Below are positions 22,112 through 29,973 of a stretch of 64,000 nt of DNA, in pieces (position 1 is the first letter of the stretch; each line of letters starts with the position of its first letter). The stretch is from Rhodococcus zopfii NBRC 100606 = JCM 9919 (GTDB taxonomy: Bacteria; Actinomycetota; Actinomycetes; Mycobacteriales; Mycobacteriaceae): contig NZ_BCXI01000003.1 in the NCBI RefSeq assembly GCF_001895025.1, positions 124,001 through 188,000 on the forward strand, read 5' to 3'. The notes under the pieces were generated by a model that made no database searches, was not told where the DNA came from, and saw only the letters and a program-made list of their open reading frames with translations. The translations under genes were made by a program, and so were the position numbers.

Positions 22112-22551
22112 CACAGATCGCATCCCATCCGATGCCGGACGTCCCCGATCCGATACCGGGTGGTGGCGGGATTCCCACGACATTGTCGGTGCCTGCGCTG
22201 CACGCTCAGTTGCCCGTCATCCGCATGCTCACCGAGGTGGTGGCGATGCACGGCGGGTGCACGCTCGACCAGGTCTCGGACCTCAAGCTTGCGGTCGACC
22301 AGGTCTGCACGCTGCTCATCGAAGCGGCCGCACCCGCCACCGAGATCACCTGCCGATTCCGCAAGGACCACGATGTGTTCCGCATCGAGGTCACCGCGAC
22401 CACGATCGAACGCTGGCGACCGGCGCCCGACAGTCTCGAATGGCGAATCCTGGAACTGCTGGCAGACACCCTCTCCGCGAACGAAGAGCCTGAGGCGACC
22501 GGGAAGGCGGCGAAATCGAAGGTCGAGCTGAGCATCGGAATGCCGGCATGA
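22108..22551 (+). CDS. SigF anti-sigma factor, UsfX/RsbW-like
   Basis: The TTG at 22108 overlaps the previous stop (TTGA) and gives 147 residues. This start keeps the four-base coupling pattern; an upstream ATG inside the previous gene is unlikely. The protein has a degenerate RsbW fold: VIRMLTEVVAMHGGCTLDQVSDLKLAVDQVCTLLIEAA is the N-box helix as in mycobacterial UsfX, with little left of a typical ATP G-box. Its place directly before sigF, overlapping by ATGA, matches the usfX-sigF arrangement. It should bind SigF and keep it inactive until an antagonist intervenes. Confidence 0.88.
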   Translation: MTQIASHPMPDVPDPIPGGGGIPTTLSVPALHAQLPVIRMLTEVVAMHGGCTLDQVSDLKLAVDQVCTLLIEAAAPATEITCRFRKDHDVFRIEVTATTIERWRPAPDSLEWRILELLADTLSANEEPEATGKAAKSKVELSIGMPA

Positions 22552-23366
22552 CGGTTGCCGAGATCGATTCGCAGTCCGTCGGAAGGGGTCCGGCGAGCAC
22601 GCGCAGAATCGACGAGGAGCACCTTGCGGAGTTGTTCGACGCATTCCGCGGATGCTCCGCCGGTTCCGACCAGGCCGTCGCGCTTCACGAGCAGATCGTC
22701 ACGGCGGCGATGCCGTTGGCGCAGAACATCGCCCAGCGCTTCGCGGGCCGTGGCGAGGACATGGACGACCTCAATCAGGTGGCGTGCGTGGGGTTGCTCC
22801 AGGCGATCGAGCGGTTCGACGCCGAGAAGGGGCGCGGGTTCGTCGCGTACGCCGTGCCCACCGTCATGGGCGAGATCCGTCGCTACTTCCGCGACCACGC
22901 CTGGTCCACGCGTGTGCCGCGGCGGCTCAAGGACCTGACCGTGGCCGTCAACAGGGTCACCGACGATCTCGCGCAACGGCTGGGTCGCTCCCCGACGGCA
23001 GCGGAGATCGCGGCCGAGATCGGTGCCGAGCCCGGCGAGGTGATCGAGGCGCTCGCCGCCCGCAGCGCGTATCAGCCTGCGTCCCTGGACACTCCGCTCG
23101 ATCTTGCCGGTGAAGGTGCGGGTGCGACGCTGGCGGATACGCTCGGCGAGGAGGACGGTGAGCTCGCGAAGTCCGAGCGGTATCTGCTGCTGCGGCCGTT
23201 GCTCGAGCGGGTTCCGGAACGGGAGCGGCACATTCTGATGCTGCGATTCTTCGAGGAGAAGAGCCAATCGGAGATCGCGCGGGAGATCGGCGTCTCCCAG
23301 GTGCACGTCTCCCGACTGCTGGCCAGGACTCTGGCGGAGTTGCGGTCACGGCTGATCGACGAGTAG
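22548..23366 (+). CDS. sigF: RNA polymerase sigma factor SigF (SigB/SigF group)
   Basis: A 272-residue group 3 sigma factor for stress and stationary-phase genes. Region 2 reads AQRFAGRGEDMDDLNQVACVGLLQAIERFDAEKGRGFVAYAVPTVMGEIRRYFRD, region 3 has RVPRRLKDL and SPTAAEIAAEIG, and region 4 ends in the helix-turn-helix SQSEIAREIGVSQVHVSRLLARTL. The ATG overlaps the anti-sigma stop. A likely SigF-type promoter lies upstream of the operon (P3). Related promoter blocks precede the other antagonist pair and the lipoprotein, so this sigma factor probably feeds back on the whole locus. Confidence 0.95.
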   Translation: MTVAEIDSQSVGRGPASTRRIDEEHLAELFDAFRGCSAGSDQAVALHEQIVTAAMPLAQNIAQRFAGRGEDMDDLNQVACVGLLQAIERFDAEKGRGFVAYAVPTVMGEIRRYFRDHAWSTRVPRRLKDLTVAVNRVTDDLAQRLGRSPTAAEIAAEIGAEPGEVIEALAARSAYQPASLDTPLDLAGEGAGATLADTLGEEDGELAKSERYLLLRPLLERVPERERHILMLRFFEEKSQSEIAREIGVSQVHVSRLLARTLAELRSRLIDE

Positions 23367-23473: not shown

Positions 23474-23481
23474 TGTATACA
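23474..23481. promoter_or_regulatory. Candidate GntR (FadR-subfamily) operator before thiM
   Basis: TGTATACA is a perfect palindrome that fits the FadR-subfamily consensus t.GTa.tAC.a. It lies 130 bases before thiM, in a segment (23450-23530) crowded with GTACAT, GTACAAG and CATACAT words. The 244 bases between sigF and thiM contain no gene. The cluster ends with a FadR-type regulator that could bind here. TTGTACAA at 27011-27018, just before the monooxygenase gene, is a second candidate. Confidence 0.4.
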
Positions 23482-23610: not shown

Positions 23611-24408
23611 ATGTCTGATGTGCCGGCAAGCCGAGTCGGGTGGCCCGACCCGCGTGTCGTCGAGGCGCTCGAGCGCGTCCGCGCTGGCAAGCCGCTGACC
23701 TACGGGCTGACCAACTACATCGCCGCACCCCTGAGCGCGAACATGTTGCTGGCTGTCGGTGCCTCCCCGGCCATCGGTGGAATACCGCTCGGCGCTGCAC
23801 ATTTCGCGACCATCGCCGGTGGTGCCTGGATCAACCTGGCCGCTCTGATCAGCGATACACCCGAATTGCTCCTGGAGACCGCCCGGGCCGCCAACGCCGC
23901 GAGCACCCCGTGGGTGCTGGACCCGGTGACCGTCGGCGCAGGCATCGAGGCCACCGACGCGCTCGCCGCGCAACTGATCGACCTCGGGCCCGCCGTGGTT
24001 CGTGGCAACGCCAGCGAGGTCGTCGCCCTGGCCGGCGGCGACGGCGCGACCAAGGGCGTGGACAGCACGGTCTCCTCGGAGGCGGCGATTCCCTTCGCGA
24101 AGTCGTTGGCGCAGCGGACCGGTGGGGTGGTGGCCGTCAGCGGACCGACCGACTATCTGACCGACGGCGTGGAACTGGTCGCGGTGCCCGGCGGGCACCC
24201 GTACCTGACACAGGTGACCGGTGCCGGCTGCAGCCTGGGTGGTCTGGTCGCGGCCTTCGCGGCGGTCGTGCCCGACCGGTTGCAGGCCGCGACGGCCGCC
24301 CACGCCGTCCTCGCAACCGCAGCCGAGCGCGCGGCCTCCCGGACCCGCGGCACCGGTTCCTTCGCCGTCGCGCTCGTCGACGAGTTGTCCTTGCTGGGCG
24401 TCGCATGA
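23611..24408 (+). CDS. thiM: Hydroxyethylthiazole kinase-like protein
   Basis: ThiM phosphorylates 4-methyl-5-(2-hydroxyethyl)thiazole during thiamine salvage. The 265-residue product from the ATG at 23611 (GAGGAGG before it) has the family landmarks: TNYIAAPLSANMLLAVGASPAIGG for the substrate pocket, WVLDPVTVGAG, NASEV, and the anion-hole/catalytic VTGAGCSLGG (usually VTGTGC). Some substrate-side residues differ from textbook ThiM (INLAALISD for INIGTL), so the true substrate may be a related thiazole. It is coupled by ATGA to an ABC permease, and no TPP riboswitch is visible. An unusual setting for thiM. Confidence 0.82.
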   Translation: MSDVPASRVGWPDPRVVEALERVRAGKPLTYGLTNYIAAPLSANMLLAVGASPAIGGIPLGAAHFATIAGGAWINLAALISDTPELLLETARAANAASTPWVLDPVTVGAGIEATDALAAQLIDLGPAVVRGNASEVVALAGGDGATKGVDSTVSSEAAIPFAKSLAQRTGGVVAVSGPTDYLTDGVELVAVPGGHPYLTQVTGAGCSLGGLVAAFAAVVPDRLQAATAAHAVLATAAERAASRTRGTGSFAVALVDELSLLGVA

Positions 24409-25232
24409 CGACTGCCGCCACTGTGCCGGTCGTCGGCAGGCCCACCGGCACGTCGGGCGTGCGACGCCCACCCCGCATCCCGGCCTGGGCGTCGTGGCTC
24501 AGCACCGTGGCGATCTTCGCGTTCTGGTGGTTGGGGACCGCGACCGGTCTGGTCGATTCCCGGGCGCTGCCCGGCCCGGACAAGGTCGTCGAAGCGGCGT
24601 GGGAACTGACCGAGAAGGGCATTCTCGGCGAAGCCGTGCTCGTGAGCCTGGGCCGGGTTCTCGCCGGCGTCGTCATCGGCCTGCTGGTCGGTGTGGTGCT
24701 CGGACTGCTCAGCGGCTACTTCCTGGTGGGCGAGGCGGCGGTCGACAAGCCGGTACAGATGCTGCGCGCCATTCCGTTCAACGCCCTGACGCCCCTGTTC
24801 ATCATCGCGTTCGGCGTCGGCGAGACGATGAAGGTACTGCTGATCAGCGTCGGCGTCCTGGTGCCGATCTATCTCAACACCTTTGCCGGTGTCCGCGGGG
24901 TGGATCGCAAACTGGTCGAGGTCGGCACCGTCTATCGCGTCCCCAAATTCCTGATCGCGACCCGGATCCTGTTTCTCGGCGCCCTGCCGTCGGTGTTCAC
25001 CGGCCTGCGCTTCTCGCTGGCGGTTGCGTGGATCGCCCTGGTTACCGCGGAAACCGTGAATGCCAGTGCGGGTATCGGATTCGTTCTGACCCAGGCGCAA
25101 CGCTTCGTCCGCACCGACCAGGTGGTGCTGTGCATCGCGATCTACGCCTTCCTCGGCCTGTTCACCGACTGGATCGTGCGCTGCCTCGAGCGGCACTTCC
25201 TGCGGTGGCGCGGGTCCTACCAGGGCAACTGA
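24405..25232 (+). CDS. ABC transporter permease, SsuC/TauC type
   Basis: The inner-membrane channel of a nitrate/sulfonate/taurine-type importer. The 275-residue product starts at the ATG that overlaps the thiM stop. It has about six membrane helices; the cytoplasmic coupling loop with the EAA-like motif is VEVGTVYRVPKFLIATRILFLGALPSVFTGLR, a form typical of the SsuC group. The N-terminal 25 residues are Pro/Arg-rich. It pairs with the binding protein and ATPase that follow. The substrate class is a small organic anion or heterocycle; the thiM and rhodanese neighbours point to sulfur. Confidence 0.88.
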   Translation: MTTAATVPVVGRPTGTSGVRRPPRIPAWASWLSTVAIFAFWWLGTATGLVDSRALPGPDKVVEAAWELTEKGILGEAVLVSLGRVLAGVVIGLLVGVVLGLLSGYFLVGEAAVDKPVQMLRAIPFNALTPLFIIAFGVGETMKVLLISVGVLVPIYLNTFAGVRGVDRKLVEVGTVYRVPKFLIATRILFLGALPSVFTGLRFSLAVAWIALVTAETVNASAGIGFVLTQAQRFVRTDQVVLCIAIYAFLGLFTDWIVRCLERHFLRWRGSYQGN

Positions 25233-25301
25233 GCGTAAGGGGGCAACCGCGCTCGCGCCGGCCGCCCCAACCTGAACCTCCCCGAAAGCGGAAAAGAGCC
25301 C

Positions 25302-26273
25302 ATGAAGAACAAGTCCCGTCTCCTCACCACCATCGTCGCGCTTGCGACCGTCGCCATCGGATTGACCGGCTGCAGCAGCGATTCCGGCGCCGACGACGAT
25401 ACGGTGGTGTTCCGTTCGGCATACCTGCCGACGGCGAACTATCTGACCACCGTCCGGACCACCGGCGTTCTCGAGGACGAGCTGGCAAAGGTCGGCGCGA
25501 CGGCCGAGCACATCGGGCCGCTCGATCCGATCGAGGCGTACAACACGGTCACCTCCGGCAACGCGGATGCCTCCTCCACCGGGACCGGATATTTCGTGAA
25601 TCTTGCTGCCAACGACAGTGAGTGGGTGGCCTTCGCCCTGGAGAAGTACACCGGCGACAGCCAGGGCATCGTGGCCGCGCCCGGAACCGGTATCGACTCG
25701 CTCGAAGACCTCTACGGCAAGAAGATCGGCATCGACAACCCGGGCGCCACGGGCGACTATCTGGTCCACCAGGCCTTCGCGAACGCCGGCCTGGACGTCT
25801 CCCGGGTGGAGCTGGTCTCGCTGGCCCCGGGCGACTTCGCCGCGGCATTCGGCAGCGGACAGATCGACGCCCTCGCCTCGTTCGACCAGAATCTGGCCAA
25901 CGCCGTCGCCACTCCGGGAGCGAAGCTGCTCGTCACCGGTGACCAGATCGGTTCCTACAACTGGTCGATCCACATCGCGAGTCGCGAGTTCGCCACGGAA
26001 CATCCGGAGGCGCTGGCCGCGGTGTACCGCGGACTGGTCCGAGAATCCCAGCGGGCACAAGCCGATCCGTCGATCATCACCGATGCGTACACGGAGTTCG
26101 GTGCCGGTGACGAGGTTGTCGAGGTCGTCTCCGGCTTCTCGACGCCGCAGATCCTGCCGTTGGACGCCGCCGCGGTCGCGGACCTCAACGCGCTCGCCGA
26201 GCAGTACGTGGAGTTCGGATTCATCGACGAGGCGCCCGAGATCGGCAACTACGTCGTGAACCTGGCCGAGTAG
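25302..26273 (+). CDS. ABC transporter substrate-binding lipoprotein, SsuA/NMT1 type
   Basis: A 323-residue lipoprotein (signal core, lipobox LTGC with Cys24) that catches the substrate outside the membrane. The fold is that of the NMT1/SsuA group: VVFRSAYLPTANYLTT at the start, GPLDPIEAYNTVTSGNADASSTGTGYFVNLA, the hinge EDLYGKKIGIDNPGATGDYLVHQAF and GQIDALASFDQNLANAVATPG. The pocket serine/threonine-rich segment STGTGY suggests an oxyanion such as a sulfonate or carboxylate. Family members bind sulfonates, taurine, nitrate or HMP derivatives, so the ligand is open. It ends 5 bases before the ATPase gene. Confidence 0.87.
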   Translation: MKNKSRLLTTIVALATVAIGLTGCSSDSGADDDTVVFRSAYLPTANYLTTVRTTGVLEDELAKVGATAEHIGPLDPIEAYNTVTSGNADASSTGTGYFVNLAANDSEWVAFALEKYTGDSQGIVAAPGTGIDSLEDLYGKKIGIDNPGATGDYLVHQAFANAGLDVSRVELVSLAPGDFAAAFGSGQIDALASFDQNLANAVATPGAKLLVTGDQIGSYNWSIHIASREFATEHPEALAAVYRGLVRESQRAQADPSIITDAYTEFGAGDEVVEVVSGFSTPQILPLDAAAVADLNALAEQYVEFGFIDEAPEIGNYVVNLAE

Positions 26274-26278
26274 TACCC

Positions 26279-26977
26279 ATGAGCGACATACGACTGGACT
26301 CGGTGACGAAGGACTTCGGAACGCACCGGGTGCTCGACGCCCTCTCGCTGGATGTTCCTTCGGGACAGTTCATCTCGCTGGTGGGACGGTCCGGCTCGGG
26401 CAAGTCCACGCTGCTGCGGATCATTGCCGGCCTGGACGCGGCGACCACCGGTGAGGTGACCGCGACCGACCGTCTCGCGGTCGCCTTCCAGGAATCGCGA
26501 CTGTTCCCGTGGTTGTCGGTGCGGGACAACGTCGGGTTCGGCCTGCCCCGCACCGGCCGCAGGGATATCGTCGAGCGGGCGCTGGCCGAGGTCGGACTCG
26601 CCGACAAGGCCGAGGTGTGGCCGTTGACGCTGTCCGGTGGTCAGGCACAGCGAGTCTCGTTGGCCCGGGCGCTCGTTCGCCGACCGGAGATCCTGCTGCT
26701 CGACGAGCCGTTCGGCGCCCTCGACGCACTGACCCGGCTCGACATGCAGAATCTGGTCGGCCGGCTGTGGCAGGACCACGGCTGGACCGTCGTCATGGTC
26801 ACCCACGACGTCGACGAGGCTGTGCGGCTGGCCGATCGGGTGGTGGTGCTCGCCGACGGCGCCATCGCCGAGGACATCCCGGTCCCCGGCCGCGGCCCGC
26901 GCAGTGCCGAGACGATCGCCGGAACCGGACTGACCGGAGAGCTGCTCCGGGCTCTGGGAGCGTTCTCGACCACCTGA
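26279..26977 (+). CDS. ABC transporter ATP-binding protein, SsuB/TauB type
   Basis: The 232-residue ATPase that powers the importer. Walker A is GRSGSGKST (about residues 39-47), the Q-loop is VAFQESRLFPWLSV, the signature is LTLSGGQAQRVSLARAL, Walker B is ILLLDEPFGALD and the switch histidine is in VTHDVDEAV. The Q-loop wording FQE.RL.PW is typical of SsuB/TauB. It is short, like the family. The next gene starts 51 bases later behind a palindrome that may be an operator. Confidence 0.92.
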   Translation: MSDIRLDSVTKDFGTHRVLDALSLDVPSGQFISLVGRSGSGKSTLLRIIAGLDAATTGEVTATDRLAVAFQESRLFPWLSVRDNVGFGLPRTGRRDIVERALAEVGLADKAEVWPLTLSGGQAQRVSLARALVRRPEILLLDEPFGALDALTRLDMQNLVGRLWQDHGWTVVMVTHDVDEAVRLADRVVVLADGAIAEDIPVPGRGPRSAETIAGTGLTGELLRALGAFSTT

Positions 26978-27028
26978 CCTCCGTACCGTCACCGAGCACC
27001 GATACCGATCTTGTACAAAGGATTTGAC

Positions 27029-28396
27029 GTGAACAACCCCGCAACCTCCGTCGGCGACCACATGCACCTGGCTGCGTTCATGAATGCCGGCCCGGGTGGA
27101 GTCGGTGGATGGCGGCATCCGCGGGCCGAGCCCGGCTGGTTCTCGATGTCCTACTACCAGAACATCGCACGGACGCTGGAAGCCGGCCGATTCGACCTGA
27201 TGTTCTTCGCGGACAGCCTGTCGGTCCCCCGAAGCCTGGGGGACAGCATCGCCGACAACGTCCGGTACGGCGTCGGTGTGCCGCGGCTCGACCCGATCCC
27301 GGTGATCAGCGTCATCGCGGCCGCGACCCGGCACCTCGGGCTGGCGGCCACCGCGTCGACCGGATTCCAGCAGCCGTTCAACACCGCCCGCACCTTCGCG
27401 AGTCTCGACCATCTCACCGAGGGGCGTGCGGCATGGAACGTGGTGACCAGCTTCCAGGACGCCGAGGCCCGCAACTTCGGTGAGGAGCGGCTGGCGCCGC
27501 GGGACGCGCGCTACGGCAAGGCCGAGGAGTTCCTCCAGGTGGCCGCGAAACTGTGGGACAGCTGGGCCGACGACGCACTGGTCGTCGACAAGGAGTCGGC
27601 CCAGTTCGCCCGCCCCGAATCGGTGGCGCCGATCGATCATCGCGGCGAGTACTTCGCGGTCCAGGGTCCGCTGCAGGTGCCGCGCGGTCCGCAGGGCTAT
27701 CCGGTGATCATCCAGGCGGGGTCATCTCCCGCCGGAAGGGATTTCGCGTCTCGCTGGGCGGACGTCATCTTCTGCAGCCACGAATCGCTCGAGTCCGCCA
27801 TCGCGTTCCGCCGGGACGTCCGCCGGCGTGCGGAAGAAGCCGGCCGCGACCCGAACCACATCAGAATTCTGCCCGCGGTCACCCCGATCATCGGCACGAC
27901 CGCCGGCAACGCGCACGCCCGGCGCCTCGAATTCGAGGATCTGGTGCCTGCCGAGGCCGGCCTGTCCCGGCTCGCGTACCACCTCGACGTCGACCTGTCG
28001 CAGTACGACCTGGACAAGCCGCTGCCGCCGCTGGACGTGCAGGGCGTCGACGGCCACTACCGGGAGGTGGTGGAGGTCGCCGAACGGGAAGGCTTCACCG
28101 TCCGGGAACTCGGCAAGTGGTACGGCGCCCGCACCGAAGGCAACCTGGTCGGTACCGTCGGCCAGATCGCAGACCGCATGGAGGAGTGGTTCACCCGCGG
28201 TGCAGCGGATGGTTTCACGGTCTGCCCCACCCACACTCCGGTGGCCTTCGAGGACTTCACCGGCGCGGTCGTCCCCGAACTGCAGCGGCGCGGGCTCTTC
28301 CGCACCGAGTACGAAGGATCGACGCTGCGCGAGAACCTGGGCGTGCCGAGGCCGGAGGCCGGGGAGTGGCGTCGTCGTGCACGCATCGCGTCGTGA
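27029..28396 (+). CDS. FMNH2-dependent monooxygenase, NtaA/SnaA/DszA family
   Basis: A two-component, luciferase-like (bacterial LLM class) oxygenase; relatives attack nitrilotriacetate, pristinamycin, EDTA or dibenzothiophene sulfone and need a separate flavin reductase. The GTG at 27029 follows AAAGGA and gives 455 residues, the usual length. Landmarks are DLMFFADSLSV, LEPIPV-like LDPIPVISVIAAAT, WNVVTSFQDAEARNFG, GYPVIIQAGSSPAGRDFA (flavin phosphate site) and the late GTVGQIADRMEEWF. No reductase gene is in the window. It overlaps the rhodanese gene by GTGA, which suggests a joint role in releasing or handling sulfur. Confidence 0.9.
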   Translation: MNNPATSVGDHMHLAAFMNAGPGGVGGWRHPRAEPGWFSMSYYQNIARTLEAGRFDLMFFADSLSVPRSLGDSIADNVRYGVGVPRLDPIPVISVIAAATRHLGLAATASTGFQQPFNTARTFASLDHLTEGRAAWNVVTSFQDAEARNFGEERLAPRDARYGKAEEFLQVAAKLWDSWADDALVVDKESAQFARPESVAPIDHRGEYFAVQGPLQVPRGPQGYPVIIQAGSSPAGRDFASRWADVIFCSHESLESAIAFRRDVRRRAEEAGRDPNHIRILPAVTPIIGTTAGNAHARRLEFEDLVPAEAGLSRLAYHLDVDLSQYDLDKPLPPLDVQGVDGHYREVVEVAEREGFTVRELGKWYGARTEGNLVGTVGQIADRMEEWFTRGAADGFTVCPTHTPVAFEDFTGAVVPELQRRGLFRTEYEGSTLRENLGVPRPEAGEWRRRARIAS

Positions 28397-29259
28397 CCGC
28401 ATCACCGTTGGTCGACGCGGCTCGGCTCCGTTCACATCTCGGCGCGCGCCGACTGGTCGTGCTGGATGCGACGGTCGACAGAACGACGGACGGTCGCTAC
28501 GTCAGCGGGCGTGCCGGTTTCGTCGATGACGGGCGCATTCCCGGATCCCGCCACGCGGATCTGATTGCGGACTTCTCGGATCCACAGGCGCCGTTCCCCT
28601 TCACCCGGCCGGACGCCGGCGCGTTCGAGGCCGCGGCGCGTGCGCTCGGAATAGGCGCGGACTCGACGGTGGTGGTCTACGACCGTCGCGGAGGAGCCTG
28701 GGCCGCACGCGTGTGGTGGCTGCTGCGGTCCTTCGGGCACGACGACGTCGGTGTGCTCGACGGCGGGCTGCGGGCCTGGGTCGACGCCGGCGGCGAGGTG
28801 GAGACCGGTGTGGTCGTCTCGCCGCGGGCAGGCGACTTCCGTGCCACGGTCCGGGACGGGTATTTCGCCGACACGGATGCGGTCCGGGCGGCGATGAACG
28901 GGGACGGTCCGGCCGGTCTGGTGTGTGCGCTGGGCCGCGACGTGTTCGAGGGGCGTGCCACGGTGGCCGGGCGCGCCGGGCACATTCCGGGCAGCGTGAA
29001 CGTGCCGTACCCGGATCTGCTCGATCCCACGGGCCACATCGACGCTCATCGCGTCCGGGCGGCGGTGGCCGAACTCGACCGATTGCCCGGGCGCGCCGCG
29101 GGTCGCACCGTGATCGGGTACTGCGGGGGCGGGATCAATGCCGCCGGGCTGGCTCTGGCACTGTCTGTGGTGGGCATCACCACTGTGGAGGTATACGACG
29201 GTTCGCTGTCGGAGTGGAACGCCGACCCCGGCAATCCGCTGGAGATCGTGGACGGGTGA
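28393..29259 (+). CDS. Sulfurtransferase, two rhodanese domains
   Basis: The 288-residue protein moves sulfane sulfur from donors such as thiosulfate or 3-mercaptopyruvate to cyanide or thiol acceptors. The inactive N-terminal rhodanese domain (about 1-140) carries VVVYDRRGGAWAARVWWLLRSFGHDDVGVLDGG. The catalytic C-terminal domain has AGHIPGSVNVPYPDLL and the active loop Cys-Gly-Gly-Gly-Ile-Asn-Ala; the CGGGINA form differs from the usual CRKGVT or CGSGVTA loops, so donor preference is uncertain. The GTG start lies in the monooxygenase stop. Typical length. Confidence 0.88.
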   Translation: MTASPLVDAARLRSHLGARRLVVLDATVDRTTDGRYVSGRAGFVDDGRIPGSRHADLIADFSDPQAPFPFTRPDAGAFEAAARALGIGADSTVVVYDRRGGAWAARVWWLLRSFGHDDVGVLDGGLRAWVDAGGEVETGVVVSPRAGDFRATVRDGYFADTDAVRAAMNGDGPAGLVCALGRDVFEGRATVAGRAGHIPGSVNVPYPDLLDPTGHIDAHRVRAAVAELDRLPGRAAGRTVIGYCGGGINAAGLALALSVVGITTVEVYDGSLSEWNADPGNPLEIVDG

Positions 29260-29298
29260 CGGTCGAAGCCCGCCGATTCAGCACGAGAGAGGACGAAC

Positions 29299-29973
29299 GT
29301 GGTACGCGCCAGCAAGAGTGAGCCGGATCCCTCCGAACTCCGGGACGATGCCGGCAGCGTCTACGAACGCCTGCGTTCGGATCTGGTCCACGGGGGATTC
29401 GAGCCCGGCGCGGCGCTGTCGGAAGCCGCGCTGACCGCCCGCTACGGGGTTTCGCGCACCCCGGTCCGCGAGGCACTTGCCCGGCTCGACCAGGATGCCC
29501 TGGTCGAGCGCGGGCCTCGCGGCTACCAAGTGCGCGTCGGCGGGCCGGCGGATGTCCTGGAGATCTACGAGGCCCGGATCGCGCTCGAAGGCGTCGCCGC
29601 TGCCGATGCCGCGGAACGTCGCACCGAACTCGAACTCGCGCGGCTGCGCAAGATCCACGAGCAGATGTGCACCTCGACGGAGACCCGGGTGATCCTCGAG
29701 ATGAACACGCGCTTCCATCGCGAACTGTGGGCGGCGGCGCACAACCACACCATTTCCACACTGCTGCAACGCTTGTCCGCACAGCTGCGGCTGTTCGATC
29801 GCGGTACCCGCGGGATCGAGGACCTGGAGTGCACCAAGGCCGAGCACGAGCGGATCCTCGAGGCGATCACCGTCCGCGACAGCGTGCTCGCCCGCACCGA
29901 GGTGACCGCGCACCTGTCGCGGACCCGGGAGGAACGCATCAACCACTTCGCGCAGTCCGGTCTGGACCTGTAA
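29299..29973 (+). CDS. GntR-family regulator with FCD domain
   Basis: A 224-residue repressor/activator from a GTG at 29299. The winged helix covers about 20-85 (VYERLRSDLVHGGFEPGAALSEAALTARYGVSRTPVREALARLDQDALVER) and the FCD ligand domain follows with metal-ligand positions NTRFHREL and AEHERILEAI. As the last gene of the thiM-ABC-monooxygenase-rhodanese cluster, it probably senses the substrate or a breakdown product. Possible operators are TGTATACA at 23474 and TTGTACAA at 27011. Confidence 0.9.
   Translation: MVRASKSEPDPSELRDDAGSVYERLRSDLVHGGFEPGAALSEAALTARYGVSRTPVREALARLDQDALVERGPRGYQVRVGGPADVLEIYEARIALEGVAAADAAERRTELELARLRKIHEQMCTSTETRVILEMNTRFHRELWAAAHNHTISTLLQRLSAQLRLFDRGTRGIEDLECTKAEHERILEAITVRDSVLARTEVTAHLSRTREERINHFAQSGLDL

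Follow-up and report, generated by a model that had tools for sequence, protein, structure and literature searches.

A candidate GntR-controlled operon for thiazole use in Rhodococcus zopfii and the recurrent linkage of its ThiM-like kinase with a monooxygenase and a sulfurtransferase

The 64,000 nucleotides of Rhodococcus zopfii NBRC 100606 (= JCM 9919) DNA analysed here, hereafter the window (contig NZ_BCXI01000003.1, positions 124,001 to 188,000), carry at 23611-29973 seven adjacent genes, all on the + strand, for a ThiM-like kinase, the three components of an ATP-binding cassette (ABC) importer, a flavin mononucleotide (FMN) monooxygenase (MO), a two-domain sulfurtransferase (MST) and a GntR regulator. 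We consider it slightly more probable than the contrary that these genes form a GntR-controlled operon for the import and degradation of a thiazole alcohol with recovery of its sulfur. The likeliest such alcohol is the thiazole moiety of thiamin, 5-(2-hydroxyethyl)-4-methylthiazole (HET), or a compound closely related to it. Judged by sequence, each part of the operon is a member of a known family. The evidence that carries this reading is the gene content, the linkage of ThiM, MO and MST genes across phyla, a ThiM pocket that has changed with the catalytic residues kept, the kinship of the regulator, and a candidate operator shared with another operon of the same genome.

Results

Recurrence of the ThiM-MO-MST core

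An alignment scan of genome contigs with ThiM as the only seed returned 62 loci, a lower bound since exact seeds were used, among which related species are not independent; partner genes were then sought by profile searches. An MO and an MST were encoded on the ThiM strand within 7.5 kb at 41 of the 62 loci, and these 41 triads came from 20 named genera and one Acetobacteraceae metagenome-assembled genome (MAG), covering both Actinomycetota and Pseudomonadota. In a control of 11 ThiM loci from the same order, called ordinary from their pocket and tree position and taken as the nearest to the window ThiM, not as a random draw, neither gene was found within 14-18 kb at any locus. The values of 41/62 and 0/11 indicate that the ThiM-MO-MST linkage is more than chance, and the recurrence across phyla rules out a genus-specific oddity. 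The cross-phylum pattern suggests horizontal transfer.

The 41 triads included a GntR gene on the same strand in 24 cases, an amidase in 8, LysR in 6, RidA in 6, HAD in 3 and an importer of the window type in 3. Since 38 of the 41 triads lack this importer, it is an accessory of the module. It was shared, in other gene orders, by Kaistia (2 loci), Leucobacter and a Hyphomicrobiales MAG cut by a contig end; the exact seven-gene order, which the initial annotation had proposed to look for in other genomes, was found among the loci examined in the window only. At locus L056, the contig ends within the binding-protein gene, after MST, ThiM and permease. A plasmid search with ThiM revealed ThiM-MO-MST behind a different ABC set in Pseudonocardia, and a further triad in Paracoccaceae La 6. 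The order in La 6 was LysR-MO-MST-amidase-HAD-RidA-ThiM-AsnC, and that in Glaciihabitans (L064, 174-7366) was ThiM-MO-MST-amidase-RidA-(flavin disulfide reductase with a rhodanese domain)-GntR. When plasmids were searched with the MO (956 records at E 1e-60), only three of the 25 listed records (H31-H33) were at least 59% identical to it, and all three had a ThiM gene adjacent or within 5 kb; the lower-identity records H34 and H50 had none.

Two other neighbourhoods of related ThiM genes were observed. In 14 Komagataeibacter loci (L086-L088, L090, L093, L096-L098, L100, L102, L103, L105, L109 and L112) a triad-type ThiM stood in a near-constant neighbourhood without MO or MST. A Pseudomonas-type ThiM of the same clade lay beside SSF transporter, APH-type, M20 and amidase-like genes in L073 (2330-10780) and L069, where the same substrate may be handled by a different route.

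The ThiM-like kinase and its pocket

The window ThiM resembled the hydroxyethylthiazole kinase of thiamin salvage in belonging to the PF02110 family (208.7 bits, cut-off 27), in passing NF006830 (234.7 bits, cut-off 180) and in keeping the catalytic D, E and C and a basic residue at K115. It scored 206.3 bits against TIGR00694, below the cut-off of 256.4, and differed from the salvage enzyme in its separate clade, in two pocket substitutions (M39I and G61A), in being free of thiamin pyrophosphate (TPP) control, and in its place beside MO and MST. The pocket comparison relied on the thiazole contacts of Staphylococcus aureus ThiM given in an excerpt of PMC4785402 (N19, V21, P37, A38, M39, G61, V90, T186, G187 and C190), seven of which were identical in the window ThiM, the third change being V21 to I. 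For this comparison 45 triads were assembled (the 41 above plus the window, Pseudonocardia, La 6 and Millisia), of which 44 were aligned, the short piece L113 being omitted, with L039 and L095 representing one genome. The Ile and Ala replacements at these excerpted positions 39 and 61 were present in 44/44 aligned triad ThiMs, against Met and Gly in all 11 ordinary ThiMs of the same order. Residues N19, P37, A38, D88, V90, T186 and C190 were unchanged in 44/44 and G187 in 43, and K115 (as Arg) and E120 were retained in 43 of the 44, with one gap. As far as these alignments tell, the catalytic machinery of the triad ThiMs is retained and their thiazole pocket is reshaped.

In a midpoint-rooted ThiM tree of 85 rows, the module-type ThiMs formed one clade (100/100) separate from ordinary ThiM, within which the window ThiM clustered (98/86) with those of Leucobacter, Kaistia and the Hyphomicrobiales MAG, all from loci with the window-type importer.

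Thiamin genes and riboswitches

No Rfam family reached its gathering score anywhere in the window, so that a TPP riboswitch is absent there, as the initial annotation had held. Elsewhere in the genome we found three TPP elements, two of them above the cut-off. Their neighbours are TenA on contig C19, ThiO, ThiS and ThiE on C29 and, at the weaker element, ThiC on C1. The genome therefore handles thiamin synthesis and pyrimidine salvage at those places, and the operon lies outside the regulon; membership in an ordinary thi regulon was set aside, there being neither a TPP riboswitch nor thi neighbours.

The monooxygenase and the sulfurtransferase

The window MO scored 528.2 bits against TIGR03860 (cut-off 279.7), a family it shares with the NtaA/DmoA/DszA group, and its closest solved structure was DszA (392 bits), in agreement with the grouping first proposed for it; the operon appears to contain no separate gene for DszB or DszC, the partners in dibenzothiophene desulfurisation by the Dsz system. 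Its start codon is GTG, preceded by AAAGGA, and an in-frame TTG at 27011 is a possible alternative. Identity to ThiM-linked MOs was 63-66% for two from Actinomycetota and 59% for one from Pseudomonadota, and identity to the other plasmid MOs among the matches listed was below 50%. The MO tree grouped it with Kaistia MOs (98/93) and left unsettled whether its paralogue on contig C18, described below, lies outside or inside the ThiM-linked clade.

The MST, previously described as a two-domain sulfurtransferase, indeed contained two PF00581 rhodanese stretches, the second of which holds the catalytic Cys, C244, a position invariant across 5 aligned members, and its best match in the PDB was E. 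coli 3-mercaptopyruvate sulfurtransferase (1urh). It shares with SseA the two rhodanese domains and the catalytic Cys loop; it departs from it in the loop sequence, CGGGINA, not the CGSGVTA of a relative in the same genome (L140), and in a score of 124.5 bits against the equivalog PRK11493, below the cut-off of 250. The loop was exactly CGGGINA in 32 of the 47 MSTs found near ThiM, and 10 of the 47 loops were unmatched by the search motif.

Two plasmids showed related genes in other company. One from Agrobacterium (L160, 6977-12988) had the order MST - binding protein - NtaA/DmoA MO - ATPase - permease - MST, without ThiM, and in one from Rhodococcus pyridinivorans (L159, 3175-7813) a sulfurtransferase adjoined nitrile hydratase and amidase genes.

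The GntR regulator, a candidate operator and the C18 operon

The regulator, correctly named GntR from the outset, contained a GntR domain (63.0 bits, gathering 27) and an FCD domain (84.1 bits, gathering 24.3) and is thus of the FadR type. Its nearest paralogues in the genome were the GntR of a second ThiM module (189 bits, see below) and that of an operon on contig C18 (132 bits), the next one scoring 59. This C18 operon (L157:13-5413) reads GntR / permease-ATPase-binding protein-MO-OsmC-like, has an MO 62% identical to that of the window, and was conserved in 4 related genomes (L168-L171). The palindrome TGTATACA, a motif chosen after inspecting the window, had just two sites in the 6.3-Mb genome, one upstream of the window ThiM (Table 1) and the other in the gap between the C18 GntR and permease genes, against 9 sites for the reversed control. 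In an independent test, 4/4 C18-type loci of other genomes had exactly one TGTATACA per 12.5-13 kb, placed between GntR and operon. These matches make TGTATACA a candidate operator common to the window and C18 operons, to which the GntR proteins would bind.

Other candidate signals were rejected: the window repeats, searched as a general pattern, matched once against 0.24 expected and GTATAC matched 3 times against 1.23, neither of which is support by itself, and the upstream regions of the window, C41 and C18 operons had no common 9-mer.

A second module in the same genome

ThiM is encoded twice in the host genome, which comprises 6.3 Mb in 146 contigs. The second gene (contig C41, L047:6182-15140) belongs to an arrangement GntR / MST-ThiM-LLM-SBP_bac_5-Dpp genes, the last being a dipeptide-type ABC importer. 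Its LLM protein was weakly SsuD-like (114 of 518 bits) and was of a different LLM subfamily from the window MO, to which it was not significantly similar (blastp E 0.1), its ThiM lay inside the ordinary ThiM clade and its MST formed a clade of its own. The GntR / MST-ThiM-LLM part was present at 12 of 15 loci of the genus and 2 of 5 other loci of the family, these 20 having been picked from genus and family out of 49 other genomes with a ThiM match. With respect to the excerpted S. aureus contacts, P37 was changed to N and M39 to H in 15/15 ThiMs of this module. The footprint GATTATGCCA...ATACTTGCGTATACG was retained in 15/15 intergenic regions. The second module also carries GTATAC, in a different setting; CGTATACG, tried as its operator 8-mer, had 31 sites in the genome and 16 for the reversed control and was discarded as not specific. 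It thus appears that kinase, MO and MST came together on two separate occasions.

The importer, operon layout and surroundings

The best curated matches of the importer were SsuC (208.4 of 347 bits), SsuA_fam (110.7 of 163.5) and SsuB (260.6 of 395), all below their cut-offs, so that its description as sulfonate-type stands for the type only. The binding protein was 62-66% identical to its Kaistia and Leucobacter counterparts. Of its five structural models a single one was of good quality (mean pLDDT 72.8, against at most 49.4 for the rest), and this predicted structure had an SsuA/TauA-like fold with SsuA as best matches, thiamin, hydroxymethylpyrimidine (HMP) and Thi5 binders ranking lower. 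The importer components and the fold of the binding protein are thus shared with SsuEADCB/TauABCD, from which the operon differs in that its MO is of the NtaA/DmoA group and not SsuD (51 of 518 bits), in the scores of the importer parts and in the addition of ThiM and MST.

Coordinates, strand and spacing of the seven genes all agreed with the initial annotation (Table 1). The ThiM/permease and MO/MST pairs overlap by 4 bases and the remaining gaps are 69, 5, 51 and 39 nt; these overlaps and short gaps fit a single transcript. A SigB/F-type (SigB/SigF-family) sigma factor gene lies directly upstream at 22548-23366, separated from the operon by 244 nt, and a convergent gene of the Y_phosphatase3 family lies downstream.

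Table 1 Features of the candidate operon in the window
Feature	Position	Strand	Evidence or remark
TGTATACA palindrome, candidate GntR operator	23474..23481		about 130 nt upstream of ThiM start
ThiM-like kinase (hydroxyethylthiazole kinase family), 265 aa, altered thiazole pocket (I55, A77)	23611..24408	+	NF006830, PF02110, pocket comparison, clade 100/100
ABC importer permease, SsuC-like	24405..25232	+	curated-model scores, overlap with ThiM
Substrate-binding lipoprotein, predicted SsuA/TauA fold	25302..26273	+	family scores, predicted structure
ABC importer ATPase, SsuB-like	26279..26977	+	family scores
NtaA/DmoA-family FMN monooxygenase (MO)	27029..28396	+	TIGR03860; nearest solved structure DszA
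Two-domain sulfurtransferase (MST), 3-mercaptopyruvate type, loop CGGGINA	28393..29259	+	two PF00581 stretches; PDB 1urh
GntR/FCD regulator	29299..29973	+	PF00392 and PF07729

Discussion

The substrate, the order of steps, the ring chemistry and the sulfur transfer of the following scheme are those that we infer from the gene set. The ABC importer would bring a thiazole alcohol into the cell, where the ThiM-like kinase would phosphorylate its side chain and so trap the compound. The FMN monooxygenase would then oxygenate and open the ring, C2 being the likeliest site, and hydrolysis, by amidase and RidA where present and otherwise by other enzymes or spontaneously, would yield an alpha-mercaptoketone. 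From this the MST may take the sulfur as a persulfide, the substrate of its family, 3-mercaptopyruvate, likewise having the arrangement HS-C-C=O, and at some loci a HAD phosphatase would strip the phosphate. In the Rut pathway, the LLM flavin oxygenase RutA opens the pyrimidine ring with the help of RidA-type and hydrolase proteins. The scheme would be analogous in using an LLM flavin oxygenase as ring opener with such helpers; it differs in that the window MO is of another LLM subfamily (50 of 498 bits against the RutA model) and in kinase priming and sulfur removal. The initial annotation had suggested uptake and oxidation of a sulfur heterocycle with sulfur passed to the rhodanese, and this fits the kinase-MO-MST core, the lack of TPP control, the altered pocket and the candidate operator; its benzothiazole variant appears less likely, because a ThiM-type kinase would need a hydroxyl group. 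More tentatively, and with rather less confidence than for the operon itself, we propose that a kinase-primed catabolism of thiazole rings may have been built at least twice from different parts, with a re-pocketed ThiM as first step, an LLM monooxygenase opening the phosphorylated ring and an MST receiving the sulfur of the ring, in persulfide form, from an alpha-mercaptoketone.

Several observations weigh against thiazole degradation. The Ile/Ala pair occurs also in 13/13 Komagataeibacter ThiMs that were aligned and in 6 further ThiMs whose loci lack the full triad (including L056, at its contig end) and hence marks the clade, not the module; it is a clade trait, perhaps from a single event, and no proof of module function, and the changed pocket may mean a substrate other than HET itself. 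Likewise, the N/H pocket of the second module is found in 4 of 6 ThiMs without that module at their locus. Twenty of the 62 related ThiMs have no MO or MST nearby (14 from Komagataeibacter, 2 from Paraburkholderia and one each from Novacetimonas, Pseudomonas, a gammaproteobacterial MAG and Erwinia), and amidase, RidA and HAD phosphatase are missing both in the window operon and in the majority of triads. The C18 operon has importer and MO without ThiM or MST, and some plasmids have MO and MST without ThiM, so that MO and MST also serve other compounds. The MST tree, which placed the window MST with those of Leucobacter (99/67) and Pseudonocardia and the Kaistia MSTs elsewhere, is discordant with the ThiM and MO trees, either because the MST was exchanged more freely or because the tree is poorly resolved; in it, the Agrobacterium MST from the ThiM-less operon nests among triad MSTs. 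Finally, the importer is closest to sulfonate binders in sequence and in predicted fold, bearing in mind that a fold alone shows no ligand.

This last point leads to the alternative that survives best, which we nevertheless hold to be unlikely: the operon would scavenge sulfur from a sulfonate or another non-thiazole organosulfur compound by SsuABC-like import, with the MO cleaving the C-S bond, the sulfur going to the MST and ThiM acting on another hydroxylated intermediate. Besides the kinship of the binding protein with SsuA/TauA, it would account for DszA being nearest to the MO in the PDB, for the C18 operon, which combines the same candidate operator, importer type and MO family with no ThiM, and for the Agrobacterium plasmid with MO, MST and ABC genes but no ThiM. 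Yet MO and MST accompany ThiM at 41 of 62 loci and this importer is present at only 3 of those 41, which indicates that kinase, MO and MST make up the core, to which the sulfonate-type importer does not belong. Moreover, desulfonation of a sulfonate yields sulfite and would require no MST, and seven of the ten excerpted S. aureus thiazole contacts are preserved in the window ThiM.

Ordinary thiamin salvage, in which ThiM would phosphorylate imported HET for TPP and MO and MST would be passengers or suppliers of sulfur, is improbable: the kinase passes NF006830 with its catalytic residues intact, but the window has no TPP riboswitch and a candidate GntR operator instead, the seven genes include no ThiD, ThiE or TenA (ThiE and TenA standing beside TPP elements elsewhere), the pocket changes are clade-wide, and MO and MST are kept beside ThiM in two phyla. 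We give as little credence to detoxification or repair, in which the operon would clear a toxic analogue of thiazole or a damaged piece of thiamin and nutrient recovery would be incidental, since the two kinds of altered ThiM pocket and the patchy, transfer-like pattern (the window ThiM and MO group with Kaistia, of another phylum) that would suit it are countered by the importer within the operon, which would speak for uptake, and by the persulfide-reductase-like gene of Glaciihabitans, which would speak for use of the sulfur.

Degradation of a thiazole alcohol would also connect with earlier work. The portion of PMC4475313 consulted reports that HET accumulates in Burkholderia where thiM is missing or silent and treats ThiM as a means of HET removal, and within that portion no step beyond the phosphate is given. 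According to an extract of PMC5899164, 2-carboxy-HET is a further thiazole that occurs in nature, and it is thereby a candidate substrate for the operon; passages of PMC8557817 mention rhodaneses and thiazole metabolism in other contexts. No gene set for breakdown of the thiamin thiazole ring, nor this combination of genes, was found in searches of an open-access library, which lacks most subscription papers.

The proposed thiazole degradation, which would supply sulfur or carbon, can be tested directly through its core of three genes and the operator motif. If true, it would account for the fate of the thiazole half of vitamin B1 after cleavage in some bacteria, a ThiM clade at present annotated as salvage would have to be relabelled, and the module would provide ring-opening enzymes for thiazoles, a frequent component of drugs and pesticides.

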